A DNA stretch of 34,780 nucleotides from a virus: positions 1 through 34,780 of IMG/VR virus record IMGVR_UViG_3300009181_000196; one strand, written 5' to 3'. Each line of letters starts with the position of its first letter. The stretch's first letter is position 1. The translations under genes were made by a program, and so were the position numbers. Shown piece by piece: positions 3,129 through 9,027 of the stretch. The notes under the pieces are model-generated. The model was not told where the DNA came from, did no database searches, and saw nothing but the letters and a program-made list of their open reading frames with translations.

Positions 3129-3136
3129 TATTTAGT
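3129..3136 (-). promoter_or_regulatory. Late promoter overlapping the terL-C stop codon
   Basis: ACTAAATA on the minus strand, 5 nt before ATG 3123. Its internal TAA is the stop codon of the terminase C-terminal gene (3132-3134). Confidence 0.65.
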
Positions 3137-4604
3137 ATGGTCGCCAACCTTGATTAAACAAATCATCAAAATCTGGGTTTTCAGTTTGTGATGTATTTCC
3201 CATAAATGATGGTAATGCATCTCCTCCTAATGAATTGTTTTCATTACCATATATAGATAATGGATTCATAAAATGTTTAATTCCATAATCCACAGATTTA
3301 ATTACAATTGGTTTTCCGTTTTCGTCTTTTTCTATAATATCAAAATAAATAGGAGCAATATCTTCATGCAAGACCATTAATGCCCAAATTAATGACATAA
3401 CTCTATCATCGTGCGCTCCATGCTTTGCTGACCATGTACCAGCTTTACTACGAATAAAATCGTTTAATTCTAAAACAGTATTAATATCATTAATCTGTAC
3501 ACGTTTTTCTATATTAATCCAATATCTTTGATTCATTACTCCATGATATTTGGTGTTTGTATGAGCAATAATACCTAAATTATTAGACACTCTGTTAGCT
3601 ACACGATTCACCCCCCAATTTACAATATTTTCATAATTGAAATCCTTTTTTAGATTATCTACCACTTGTGCTCCACAATTGTTTCGTTCAATCATAGCCA
3701 GTGGATCACCCCAATGTTGTAATATTTCTCTTAATTTAGCAGTAAATTCTGTTGGAGTGATTTTATTATTATGATAAACAGCAACTTGTTTGATTCTTCT
3801 AGGATCTGTAATATCCAATACTTGTACCACAGTTGCATCTTTGCCAACTCCTTCTGCTATATCAACTCCAACAACATAAATCTTTTCATCACTAGGCTTT
3901 TCCCATAAAGAATATCTTCCTTCATCTAATAAAAATAATGGTTTTAATGTGAATTTTTTCATCGAATCAAATAATTCTTGATCCAATGCTGATTCGCCTA
4001 CTTCATCGAATTGACATTCGTACTCACGTTTCCAGATACTCACATCTCCCAAAGAACTCATAGTTTCTTTTGCCCATTTCTCTGTTCTACCCGGAACTTC
4101 ATTCCATAAAACTTTCATACTAACCCAATTATTTTCTCCCTTAAGCGATTGACTATATAATTTATAAAACAATCCAGCAGTATCTCTAGGAGTAGATGCC
4201 ATAATTACTTTAGATTTTGTTGATGAAGAAATAATCGGATATACTGATGCCCAAAATTCATTTAAAATATGACAATTATGAGATATTACACCATTTGTGA
4301 AATATCTTCCTCCATCTACGTTTGTAACATCATATGCATCTATAAATCCATTTTTAGTAACTGATATAACTTTTTTATATCCAAAATTTGATACTATTTT
4401 TTTGTATCTAGATTTACTAGCATAAGTAAAATTTCCAGAATATGTTAATAATTCGTGATTTTCACTACATATAAGTTCAGTTCCATCATCAAATTTTAGT
4501 TTTACCGATTTTATATTTTTATTTTTAATTACACCAGAAAAGGATTTCCATCCAGTATCTGTTAAAATTTCCCAATCATTTGGATTTGAATTATTTTCTT
4601 CCAT
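3132..4604 (-). CDS. 17: Large terminase C-terminal part with split C-intein
   Basis: 490 residues. Residues 1-110 are a C-intein: block B motif GTELICSENHELL (His50), block F AYDVTNVDGGRYFTNG (90-105) and block G ISHN (107-110), with penultimate His109 and the cyclising Asn110. Cys111 is the +1 nucleophile and first C-extein residue. Residues 111-490 are the rest of gp17: the end of the ATPase domain with motif III-like ASTPR (136-140), then the RNase H-fold headful nuclease with Asp248 (VGVDIAEG), Glu306 (AMIERNNCG) and Asp399/Asp400 (GAHDDR). Splicing in trans to the N-terminal product would give a 564-residue terminase; T4 gp17 has 610. The start codon lies inside the last codons of the endonuclease gene (14-nt overlap), so the two are translationally linked. 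No strong Shine-Dalgarno sequence is visible. Confidence 0.93.
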   Translation of the reverse strand: MEENNSNPNDWEILTDTGWKSFSGVIKNKNIKSVKLKFDDGTELICSENHELLTYSGNFTYASKSRYKKIVSNFGYKKVISVTKNGFIDAYDVTNVDGGRYFTNGVISHNCHILNEFWASVYPIISSSTKSKVIMASTPRDTAGLFYKLYSQSLKGENNWVSMKVLWNEVPGRTEKWAKETMSSLGDVSIWKREYECQFDEVGESALDQELFDSMKKFTLKPLFLLDEGRYSLWEKPSDEKIYVVGVDIAEGVGKDATVVQVLDITDPRRIKQVAVYHNNKITPTEFTAKLREILQHWGDPLAMIERNNCGAQVVDNLKKDFNYENIVNWGVNRVANRVSNNLGIIAHTNTKYHGVMNQRYWINIEKRVQINDINTVLELNDFIRSKAGTWSAKHGAHDDRVMSLIWALMVLHEDIAPIYFDIIEKDENGKPIVIKSVDYGIKHFMNPLSIYGNENNSLGGDALPSFMGNTSQTENPDFDDLFNQGWRPY

Positions 4605-5541
4605 AAAAATTATAGTCTTTTTCTGTTATTACTTTATAAAAAAAGTCATTTTTTGAGCACCATTCTTCAGTATATTTCTTTTTATTTAAAAAATTTGATT
4701 GATTTAATTCAGAAGAAGGTTTAATTTCATATATTATTTTATTATCAAAATCAACAAAATCTGTAATGTATATTCTTTCATTTTCTCCATCCATATACGA
4801 TATTCTTAATTTTTCATATTCTAACTTTAAATTATTTTCATGAAAAATTAATTCCCAATTACTTCTATAATTTAATCCAGTAATATCAGATTTAATTCGT
4901 TTTGCTCTTTTTCTATTTTCTGATTTTGGTGTGAATTCTCCAGCTAATATTTTAGCTTTCATTGTTTTTGAAATTTTTTGATCGCAATTTTTGGACAATC
5001 TATGTAATCTGTCTTTTATTTTATATTCCATTGTCCATTTTTTGGCATTTGATTCTCCAATTTTTCTTTTATTTTCTTCGGATAACTTCCGTCCAGTTAA
5101 AGATTTGGATTTTTTTTCTTTTGCTTCTTTGGTTTGAACCATCCACATTCCACGTTCTTTAGCTTTTTTTGACAACATTAATTTTAGGCAATCTTTATTC
5201 TCGCAATATTTATATAAAATTCCTCCTTTATATTTAACTGGATTATTACATACACTACAATTTAATCTTTCGGTGGATATTATATTTAAAATATACTCTA
5301 ATTTATTTTTAAATGGAATATGTTCATATTTTTTTGTATGTTCAAAAATAGATAAAAGCAATACTTTATCTTTAAACTTAGAAATTAATCTAGGAACTAT
5401 TAATTTATTATTAATATAATATGTATTATTGCAAATTTTTTTAGTTTCTTCTAAAGTATAAATTAATTTGTTTTCTAAATTATATACATTTATTTTATTT
5501 ATGATATCACTAGTATAATTATATTTTAATGGATCGAACAT
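4591..5541 (-). CDS. Free-standing homing endonuclease, NUMOD3 plus PD-(D/E)XK-like
   Basis: 316 residues from ATG 5541. Numbered from an in-frame GTG at 5559 (six residues longer), it shows a probable zinc finger with Cys101, Cys104, Cys119 and Cys124. A NUMOD3-type DNA-binding motif follows (LTGRKLSEENKRKIGESNA, 155-173), common in phage homing endonucleases, then a long Lys/Arg-rich linker. The C-terminal nuclease-like domain reads YRSNWELIFHE (Glu236), YITDFVDFDN (Asp267) and IIYEIKP (Glu278, Lys280), a PD-(D/E)XK arrangement resembling the very short patch/TnsA/gp4 type. It probably cuts intein-free terL alleles and spreads the cassette. The GTG lies inside the terL-N gene and within a GATAAATA promoter motif, so ATG 5541 is preferred. 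Confidence 0.85.
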   Translation of the reverse strand: MFDPLKYNYTSDIINKINVYNLENKLIYTLEETKKICNNTYYINNKLIVPRLISKFKDKVLLLSIFEHTKKYEHIPFKNKLEYILNIISTERLNCSVCNNPVKYKGGILYKYCENKDCLKLMLSKKAKERGMWMVQTKEAKEKKSKSLTGRKLSEENKRKIGESNAKKWTMEYKIKDRLHRLSKNCDQKISKTMKAKILAGEFTPKSENRKRAKRIKSDITGLNYRSNWELIFHENNLKLEYEKLRISYMDGENERIYITDFVDFDNKIIYEIKPSSELNQSNFLNKKKYTEEWCSKNDFFYKVITEKDYNFYGRK

Positions 5542-5548
5542 ACATAAT

Positions 5549-6205
5549 CTATTTATCACTATTAAATAGATTGTATGCAGTTTCTACTGAAATTTTTTTA
5601 ATTTCTTGCGTTTTTTTATTTTTTAATTCAACTAGGACTGAACCTTCGACGCACTCGATCCAGTCCGCTTCATCGACAAATAGCAGATTAGCACTCATAC
5701 CACGACCAGCAGTTCCTGTTGTAGTACTAATACCAATTTTAGATCCATTTTGAAGTTCTAATGATTCCAATCCATAATATTCAACTGGAGATTTTAACCA
5801 ATTTGGTAGTTGTTCATATGCCATACGAATTCTTTTAAATATTTCTTTTGCTGTGTTTTCTTTATTTGCTACTAAAAGTATTCTTTGATCCGAATAAAAT
5901 AAAGCAGTCCACAAACAATATATTGTAGAAATAGTCGTTTTTCCAACTTGGCGACTAAACAAGAGCAAAGAATTTTTTGAATCTCTAATCATCCTTAATG
6001 CCTTTTTTTGATACGGATGTAACTTAATTTTTTGTTTTCCTTCATCCAAATTGACAATATAAAAATAATTTTCTGCAAAATGTAATACATTTTCTTTACA
6101 TTTTTTTAATTCAGCTAATCTTTCTGGTGTCCATTCAAATTCTGCTCCTGCTGTTGGAAGAGCAGGATTATTCATGTAAATTTCTTTTTTAGTTACTCTA
6201 GCCAT
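5549..6205 (-). CDS. 17: Large terminase N-terminal part with split N-intein
   Basis: 218 residues. Residues 1-184 are the ATPase half of the packaging motor: an HPYQ adenine-binding segment (63-66), Walker A SRQVGKTT (84-91), the region TTTGTAGRGMSANLLF, and Walker B LLFVDEA (174-180) with Asp178 and Glu179. Residues 185-218 are an N-intein: Cys185 starts block A (CVEGSVLVEL), and the chain stops 34 residues later. The protein alone lacks the rest of the ATPase domain and the nuclease, so it must be trans-spliced to the product of the terL C-terminal gene. Its ATG lies 84 bp from the divergent start at 6290. The upstream sequence is only a poor late-promoter match (ATTAACTACTCTT ending at the ATG). 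Confidence 0.93.
   Translation of the reverse strand: MARVTKKEIYMNNPALPTAGAEFEWTPERLAELKKCKENVLHFAENYFYIVNLDEGKQKIKLHPYQKKALRMIRDSKNSLLLFSRQVGKTTISTIYCLWTALFYSDQRILLVANKENTAKEIFKRIRMAYEQLPNWLKSPVEYYGLESLELQNGSKIGISTTTGTAGRGMSANLLFVDEADWIECVEGSVLVELKNKKTQEIKKISVETAYNLFNSDK
5550..5557 (-). promoter_or_regulatory. Late promoter motif at the terL-N stop codon
   Basis: GATAAATA on the minus strand, formed by the last codons of the N-intein gene (GAT AAA TAG). It ends 8 nt before ATG 5541 of the endonuclease. It could drive the endonuclease and the terminase C-terminal half separately from the N-terminal half. Confidence 0.45.
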
Positions 6206-8116: not shown

Positions 8117-8139
8117 TATAGATTTAATTTATATTAAGA
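8111..8139. terminator. AT-rich inverted repeat between convergent genes
   Basis: A perfect 10-bp inverted repeat, TCTTAATATA (8111-8120) and its complement (8130-8139), with a 9-nt loop. Each arm contains the stop codon of one of the two convergent genes. The stem is weak and no long T tract follows, so a bidirectional terminator is possible but unproven. Confidence 0.4.
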
Positions 8140-9027
8140 AATTTTATAAACACTAATTGCACCAGATGAATTTCCATTTTTATCATTAAGAGGTGCACCT
8201 ACGACTATTCTATCTCCTGTTGAATTCATTGAAACACTATATCCGAAAACATCTTCATTAGCTTCTCCATATATATCTACTAATCCTCCTAATTTATTCC
8301 AAACTCCATTTTCTAAATAATAAACTCTAACTGAACCCGAATTACGTCCATTTTTATCATTATAAGGTGCGCCTACAACTATTCTATCTCCCGCTGAATT
8401 CATTGAAACGCTATATCCAAAATAATCACCAGCAGCTTCTCCATCTATATCTACTAATCCTCCTAATTTAGTCCATGTATTTCCAATCAAAGAATAAACT
8501 CTAACTGAACCAGAATTACTTCCATTTCCGTCATTAAAAGGTGCGCCTACAACTATTCTATTTCCCGCTGAATTCATTGAAACACTAAATCCGAAATTAT
8601 CACCAGCAGCTTCTCCATCTATATCTTGTCCTAATTGAGTCCATACATTTCCAATCAAAGAATAAACTCTAACTGAACCAGAATCAATCCCTTTTCCATC
8701 ATTATTAGGTGCGCCTACAACTATTCTATCTCCTGTTGAATTTATCGAAACGCTTCGACCAAAATTATCACCAGCAGCTTCTCCATCTATATCTTGTCCT
8801 AATTTAGTCCATGTATTTCCAATCAAAGAATAAACTCTAACTGAACCAGATCGAGGCGCATTTGTGATATTAATGGGTGATGCTATTACTATTCTATCTC
8901 CCGATGAATTCATTGAAACGCTATATCCAAATTTATCATCAGTAGTTCCTCCATATAAACTTAAACCAAGTTGAGTTATATTTAATTCTTTAATAATTGC
9001 TGATAATAATACTCTTGCTCCTAACAT
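8134..9027 (-). CDS. FG-GAP-like repeat (beta-propeller) adhesin
   Basis: 297 residues made almost entirely of five repeats of about 55 residues. Each has the form D-x-FGxSVSMNSxGDRIVVGAP, then a variable xNDxNGxxSGSVRVY, then GNTWTKLGxxIDGEA. The FG and GAP motifs mark integrin-alpha-like beta-propeller blades. Asp/Asn-rich loops (NDKNGNSSG) look like calcium sites. Five blades is fewer than the usual seven, so either an unusual propeller or assembly as an oligomer is implied. It is the last gene of a minus-strand fibre operon (12965 to 8134). A surface-binding role on the tail fibre is inferred from fold and position. The ATG follows the preceding stop by 4 nt with no Shine-Dalgarno sequence. 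Confidence 0.78.
   Translation of the reverse strand: MLGARVLLSAIIKELNITQLGLSLYGGTTDDKFGYSVSMNSSGDRIVIASPINITNAPRSGSVRVYSLIGNTWTKLGQDIDGEAAGDNFGRSVSINSTGDRIVVGAPNNDGKGIDSGSVRVYSLIGNVWTQLGQDIDGEAAGDNFGFSVSMNSAGNRIVVGAPFNDGNGSNSGSVRVYSLIGNTWTKLGGLVDIDGEAAGDYFGYSVSMNSAGDRIVVGAPYNDKNGRNSGSVRVYYLENGVWNKLGGLVDIYGEANEDVFGYSVSMNSTGDRIVVGAPLNDKNGNSSGAISVYKIS
8185..8945 (-). repeat. Five tandem DNA repeats of about 170 bp
   Basis: The FG-GAP units are also alike at DNA level: segments such as CTATTCTATCTCC, GAATTCATTGAAAC and CCAGCAGCTTCTCC recur with small changes. Synonymous positions are conserved, suggesting recent duplication or recombination. The boundaries are approximate. Confidence 0.75.

Follow-up and report, generated by a model that had tools for sequence, protein, structure and literature searches.

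A Split Intein and a TnsA-like Nuclease Gene in the Terminase Locus of a Metagenomic Virus Suggest Homing into an Intein Loop

Results

We analyzed a 34,780-nucleotide stretch of viral DNA (IMG/VR record IMGVR_UViG_3300009181_000196, positions 1 to 34,780; hereafter, the window) in which the gene for the terminase large subunit (TerL) is divided into two genes, TerL-N and TerL-C, with a nuclease gene between them and the N- and C-terminal parts of a predicted intein (IntN and IntC) at the broken ends. We consider it highly likely that a TerL mini-intein at this site had its S2 loop invaded by a homing nuclease and that trans-splicing restores TerL. A sequence-only reading of the window had predicted a split intein, an early (S2) split, an endonuclease gene separating the halves, and probable trans-splicing; these predictions now find support in homology, in conserved catalytic residues, in selection, and in comparison with independent relatives and precise empty sites.

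All three genes lie on the minus strand (Table 1). The N-extein matches T4 gp17 over both Walker motifs (E 6e-30), as well as Terminase_6N and PHROG 5989 (E 3e-54), while the remainder of gp17 aligns with TerL-C residues 114-406 (E 2e-20); TerL-C also matches Terminase_6C. The Walker A and B motifs and the RNase H-like nuclease domain of a T4-type terminase large subunit are thus all present, and the predicted spliced TerL is 184 + 380 = 564 aa long. The insert between the exteins occupies exactly 4275-5653, to the base the interval proposed earlier. The cut had been placed right after Walker B; it lies five residues past the DE (..FVDEADWIE / CHILNEFW..) rather than directly after it. The nuclease gene was said to overlap its neighbors or nearly so, which agrees with a 14-nt overlap between its end and the start of TerL-C and, on the other side, with either an 11-nt overlap with TerL-N (GTG start) or a start 7 nt past the TerL-N stop (ATG). 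Of the two, the ATG agrees better with where the gene starts in relatives L018 and L020. Chance open reading frames (ORFs) or an assembly artefact were ruled out, since gene order is identical in six distinct loci; in addition, the exteins match T4 gp17, IntC matches known inteins, and the IntC fold and IntN alignment are intein-like.

Table 1. Features of the divided TerL locus in the window
Feature	Position	Strand	Details
TerL-N gene	6205..5549	minus	184 extein residues ending FVDEADWIE, then IntN, then stop
TerL N-extein, 184 aa	5654..6205	minus	Walker A SRQVGKTT, Walker B LLFVDE, ends DWIE
IntN, 34 aa (Cys1 to K34), and stop codon	5549..5653	minus	sequence CVEGSVLVELKNKKTQEIKKISVETAYNLFNSDK
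Nuclease gene	4591..5541	minus	ATG start, 316 aa; alternative GTG start at 5559, 322 aa
Zinc-finger-like cysteines C95, C98, C113, C118 of the nuclease	5188..5259	minus	all four in 13/16 relatives
Predicted nuclease active site E230, D261, E272-x-K274	4720..4854	minus	D261, E272, K274 invariant in 16 relatives; residue 230 E or D
TerL-C gene	4604..3132	minus	IntC, 110 aa, ending TNGVISHN, then C111-HILNEF
IntC, 110 aa	4275..4604	minus	block B SENH (His50), block F YDV, penultimate His109, Asn110
TerL C-extein, 380 aa, and stop codon	3132..4274	minus	Cys+1 HILNEF.., carries nuclease domain

In sequence searches, IntC found the engineered atypical split intein CatC as its best PDB match (E 8e-9), along with gp41-1 (E 1e-5), and a profile of six relatives improved both matches (1e-11 and 9e-9, respectively). 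The predicted structure of IntC, modeled alone (predicted local distance difference test score 80), matches many solved inteins, VidaL, gp41-1, and Cat among them (Foldseek probability 1.00, best E 9e-7). IntN alone, aligned with the N-termini of contiguous TerL inteins, scored 45.0, a value reached by none of 1000 shuffles (19.8 ± 0.94). When IntN and IntC were joined, their profile aligned with contiguous TerL inteins across all 144 columns (probability 99.7, E 2.3e-26). Cys1 directly follows the N-extein at the same junction in all six loci; H50 and N110 are invariant, and H109 and C111 near-invariant, over 12 loci. By Cys1, the two histidines, Asn, and Cys+1, and by the Hint fold, we assign the insert edges to a class 1 split intein. 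The 34- and 110-residue intein parts of the sequence-only reading therefore hold, including the residues it had named in IntC, while its description of the N-intein as "very short" needs qualifying, since natural atypically split inteins have an IntN of 15-37 aa (PMC13014065). The split falls after helix 1, within the linker of the contiguous relatives.

Six distinct split loci occupy exactly the window site: the window itself (= L001, L024), L002, L018/L019, L020, L021/L022, and L023. They share gene order, their IntC parts are 55-94% identical, and all retain Cys1, both His, Asn, and Cys+1. In each, IntC begins within the final stretch of the nuclease gene (14 nt of overlap in the window, L002, L018, and L020). 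We compared nonsynonymous (dN) and synonymous (dS) divergence between the window and L018. IntC is 93% identical, with dN 0.03 and dS 0.27 (dN/dS about 0.11); the values are 0.16 and 0.55 for the nuclease gene and 0.11 and 0.74 for IntN. These estimates indicate purifying selection on all three parts of the insert in this pair, strong in the case of IntC.

Such constraint bears on the possibility that the intein is dead and that the gene persists in pieces, the two TerL chains acting as a non-covalent complex. This has a parallel in a ribonucleotide reductase that, broken by a homing endonuclease, functions as two peptides (a case cited in PMC10448857), but we regard it as unlikely for the window. 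All splicing residues are retained in the six loci alongside the low dN/dS of IntC; even relatives only 25-40% identical never depart from His50 and Asn110, and rarely from His109 and Cys+1; and an intein left unspliced would have its tails next to the ATPase site. In T4-like phages TerL is an essential protein. Because plaque-forming isolates carry a sister form of this arrangement (see below), two genes must yield a working TerL there. Judging from these comparisons, the TerL halves of the window are very probably joined by trans-splicing.

The same TerL site exists in other states. Close relatives, L003, L004, L007, and L009 among others, have an uninterrupted TerL, i.e., empty alleles, with Pro, Lys, or Ser at the +1 position; Cys is found there in all intein-bearing alleles at the window site. 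In L145, a 236-kb virus contig, a contiguous mini-intein 57% identical to the split intein of the window occupies exactly the same position (the L145 TerL has two more insertions, a C-intein at Walker A and, further downstream, another contiguous intein). Where the window has its nuclease, contiguous alleles show just a short linker following helix 1; this puts the window nuclease at the S2 position, the split position described for AceL and GOS TerL (PMC13014065). We conclude that empty, contiguous, and nuclease-bearing split alleles form an allelic series at one TerL site.

The insert has also spread laterally. Between the window and L018, nucleotide identity reaches 0.89-0.94 over 4975-4275, whereas a few hundred bases away in either direction it is mostly 0.69-0.77; the exteins are only 79% (N) and 73% (C) identical, with dS of 0.80 and 1.00. 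Divergence is thus much lower in the insert DNA than in its flanks, in line with the expectation for lateral spread. The opposite case is provided by L020 and L021, whose N-exteins are 98% identical and whose inteins are 53-65% identical, so that nearly the same host gene holds different alleles. These data weigh on the idea that trans-splicing has been kept as a regulatory switch, delaying packaging until both halves accumulate or conditions allow, and is not a tolerated by-product of a selfish element. Insertion at the ATPase center does recur, and there has been discussion of inteins as modulators in terminases (PMC5050341); nevertheless, patchy presence, empty alleles in near relatives, and signatures of lateral transfer fit a mobile element without a needed role, making a switch quite unlikely.

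The window nuclease matches PF08722 above the curated cut-off, and 15 of 16 relatives match this family as well. Its predicted fold is closest to TnsA (Foldseek, 1t0f, probability 1.00, E 4.6e-3), with a weaker match to the crystallized homing enzyme I-Bth0305I (3r3p, probability 0.75, E 0.15); for this locus, a classical Vsr/I-Bth0305I-type nuclease was ruled out by Pfam and fold. In members of the family, a zinc-finger-like region (in some also NUMOD3) is followed by the TnsA-like PD-(D/E)XK domain. From sequence and model, the protein is a TnsA-like PD-(D/E)XK enzyme and a predicted homing endonuclease.

The loci that we collected contain 46 distinct catalytic domains of this family, some of them near-duplicates. 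A C-intein adjoins and follows 43 of the 46; upstream of 39 lies an N-intein, placed directly at a Walker B junction, mostly DE/C. Counted over all 46, the host genes comprise 19 TerL genes, 16 superfamily 2 helicases such as UvsW, and 6 clamp loaders, the others including an AAA protein and PhoH; two loci are without recognizable context. Outside TerL, the intein is canonically split, with a long IntN (about 95-110 aa) and a short IntC. The nuclease tree follows the insertion site, with TerL, helicase, and clamp-loader groups (0 of 500 shuffles were as clustered), and nucleases of the window site form one branch (99/95). Cellular relatives were absent from a scan of genome contigs, the reach of which is limited by the peptide patterns used, and a DNA search against phages returned short nuclease matches only.

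Has the nuclease given up homing for another job, e.g., in packaging or in completing the head? A distant relationship does link its domain to the head-closure nucleases PHROG 218 and 14892 (E about 2e-5). However, a packaging role would not predict that 43 of 46 relatives adjoin C-inteins in genes as different as those for TerL, helicases, clamp loaders, and PhoH, and we find this alternative very unlikely. That a self-splicing intron takes the insert out of the mRNA has a negligible probability, even though introns can occur in phage TerL genes, as in ICP1 terL (PMC10448857): no Rfam intron family matched in the 3.5 kb searched at E up to 5, and at its edges the insert codes for intein protein that continues the extein frames and is under purifying selection.

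TerL is interrupted at several other places. Walker A insertions are present in L008, L010, L145, and Vibrio phage VmeM-32, and L170 (1772-4523) has a large contiguous insert of about 348 aa at this motif, by appearance a complete intein that contains a homing domain. Insertions before Walker B occur in L133 and L142, with a GIY-YIG nuclease. A sister family lies directly after the Walker B DE in HY03, PD112, TG1, JK32, Thanatos-2, L040, L046, L048, and L050; its junction (YIDE/C..HN/CAFI) is five codons upstream of the window site. About 85 extein residues downstream of that site, inteins are contiguous in L011-L016 and split, with another nuclease type, in L023, L048, L142, and L143. In L048 (1476-5883), L049, and L142 (1198-5456), TerL is encoded by three genes; the two breaks lie at different sites, and each has an atypically split intein and a nuclease of its own. 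The start of the same three-gene arrangement is seen at the end of the L023 contig. Uninterrupted genes make up 73 of about 106 distinct TerL loci, a sample biased by the intein and nuclease queries that fed it. Separately, two TerL frames are broken without an intein, by an in-frame stop and an apparent frameshift (L006 1751-3433, L160 3034-4778), possibly through sequencing errors.

The sister family includes cultured T4-like phages in which an unannotated intein, accompanied by a TnsA-like nuclease, splits TerL: Yersinia phage TG1 (L026), Tequatrovirus PD112 (L028), and HY03 (L029). In two further cultured T4-like phages, Krischvirus JK32, a Shigella phage (L025 1142-2893), and Shewanella phage Thanatos-2 (L027 467-2212), the nuclease is fused in frame to TerL-N and IntN, and the fusions are annotated simply as terminase. 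The window had been regarded as a complete native locus with its own nuclease; complete it is, but not the only one, since these cultured phages have the same arrangement.

Several broken genes other than TerL were also noticed. Proteus phage PM2 uvsW (L033 1245-4902) consists of three ORFs with two endonuclease genes between them, the first break having a canonical split intein. In Campylobacter phage CPt10, a PhoH-like gene annotated as a pseudogene (L030 460-3435) appears to be divided at Walker B by a canonical split intein, whose two parts flank a TnsA-like nuclease. Clamp-loader (RFC-like) genes in L055, L064, L066, L068, and L069 are fractured after the Walker B DE, with the same nuclease family and canonically split inteins. 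Elsewhere in the window, a 297-aa ORF (8134-9027, minus strand) is made of tandem repeats of about 168 bp that are 80-85% identical and FG-GAP-like by eye.

Discussion

We propose that a class 1 mini-intein came to occupy TerL five codons past the Walker B DE and that the gene for a TnsA-like homing endonuclease then entered the intein's own S2 loop, after the first helix; through this invasion, intein and TerL would have come to be encoded by two genes. The three genes would be translated from closely abutting or overlapping frames, and IntN would dock into IntC. Cys1 would form a thioester, Cys+1 would take over the N-extein, and Asn110, with the help of His109, would cyclize, releasing full-length TerL. 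Without splicing, the Walker B motif and the nuclease domain would remain on separate chains. The endonuclease may cut intein-free TerL alleles of a co-infecting relative around the conserved Walker B codons, whereupon repair would copy intein and nuclease into the cut allele. It is from sequence comparison that we infer trans-splicing, DNA cleavage, and homing.

Several observations weigh against this proposal. The phage of the window is known from metagenomes alone. The Foldseek E value of the nuclease is modest, and cleavage of its target is predicted. IntN alone did not match CatN in database searches, being too short for a database match. Finally, L002 is a mosaic relative to the window, with an IntC 94% identical, an IntN 45% identical, and a first half of the nuclease that is not shared; the two intein parts do not always travel together.

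More broadly, we lean, if only somewhat, toward the view that a virus-borne clade of TnsA-like homing endonucleases has specialized in P-loop ATPase genes at their Walker B (DE-C) codons, repeatedly breaking the genes for TerL, UvsW-like helicases, clamp loaders, and PhoH, and that several unrelated endonuclease families invaded the same S2 loop of TerL mini-inteins. If so, repeated S2-loop invasion by unrelated endonucleases would explain the origin of atypically split inteins, and some terminases would be three separately encoded pieces that need two orthogonal trans-splicing reactions.

Atypically split TerL inteins, fractured genes with endonucleases, and inteins at TerL Walker motifs were already known (PMC11766414, PMC13014065, PMC7891396, PMC5050341). 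The literature searched, which covered few subscription papers, did not contain the TnsA-like Walker B nuclease family, same-site empty, contiguous, and split alleles, doubly fractured TerL, or cultured coliphages recognized as carrying a split TerL. What appears to be new, provisionally, is the nuclease family, together with the allelic series and the doubly fractured TerLs. Split inteins with a short N-part, a known class of biotechnology tools, are here placed back in complete native loci. The allelic series, which at the neighboring site also includes a nuclease fused to TerL-N, makes the origin of atypical splits testable, and the sister form in cultured coliphages that infect laboratory E. 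coli makes trans-splicing of an essential motor and nuclease homing directly testable. Doubly fractured TerLs are natural candidate pairs of orthogonal atypical split inteins.

The endonucleases of the classical fractured genes are reportedly Vsr/I-Bth0305I-like, unlike the TnsA-like nuclease of the window. GOS-TerL uses Ser1, whereas the window has Cys1. Like the window, AceL-TerL, GOS-TerL, and the engineered Cat-TerL have a TerL extein, an S2-type early split, a short IntN (25 aa in AceL, 37 aa in GOS; PMC11766414, PMC13014065), and Cys+1; unlike them, the window presents a complete locus with its own nuclease. The sequence-only reading had equated its early split with that of AceL-TerL. 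The split position is indeed shared, but the TerL insertion site is probably different, since the inteins closest to Cat (an AceL-TerL consensus) sit about 85 extein residues downstream. The order N-part, endonuclease, C-part, with split intein halves flanking the ORF, is that of fractured genes (Dassa et al., 2009, as cited in PMC11766414). In AceL NrdHF (PMC7891396), an endonuclease likewise separates the two halves of a fractured phage gene, but this is a ribonucleotide reductase gene with a class 3 intein, a canonical 98/48 split, and a GIY-YIG endonuclease. Mycobacteriophage TerL inteins, like that of the window, occupy ATPase motifs of TerL, in their case Walker A, Walker B, and others; they belong to other terminase families, and the text of that paper does not mention split inteins (PMC5050341). 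The TerL genes of HY03, PD112, TG1, JK32, and Thanatos-2 share with the window the nuclease family, the atypical split, and Walker B, and differ from it in a junction five codons upstream and, in JK32 and Thanatos-2, in the fusion of the nuclease to TerL-N.
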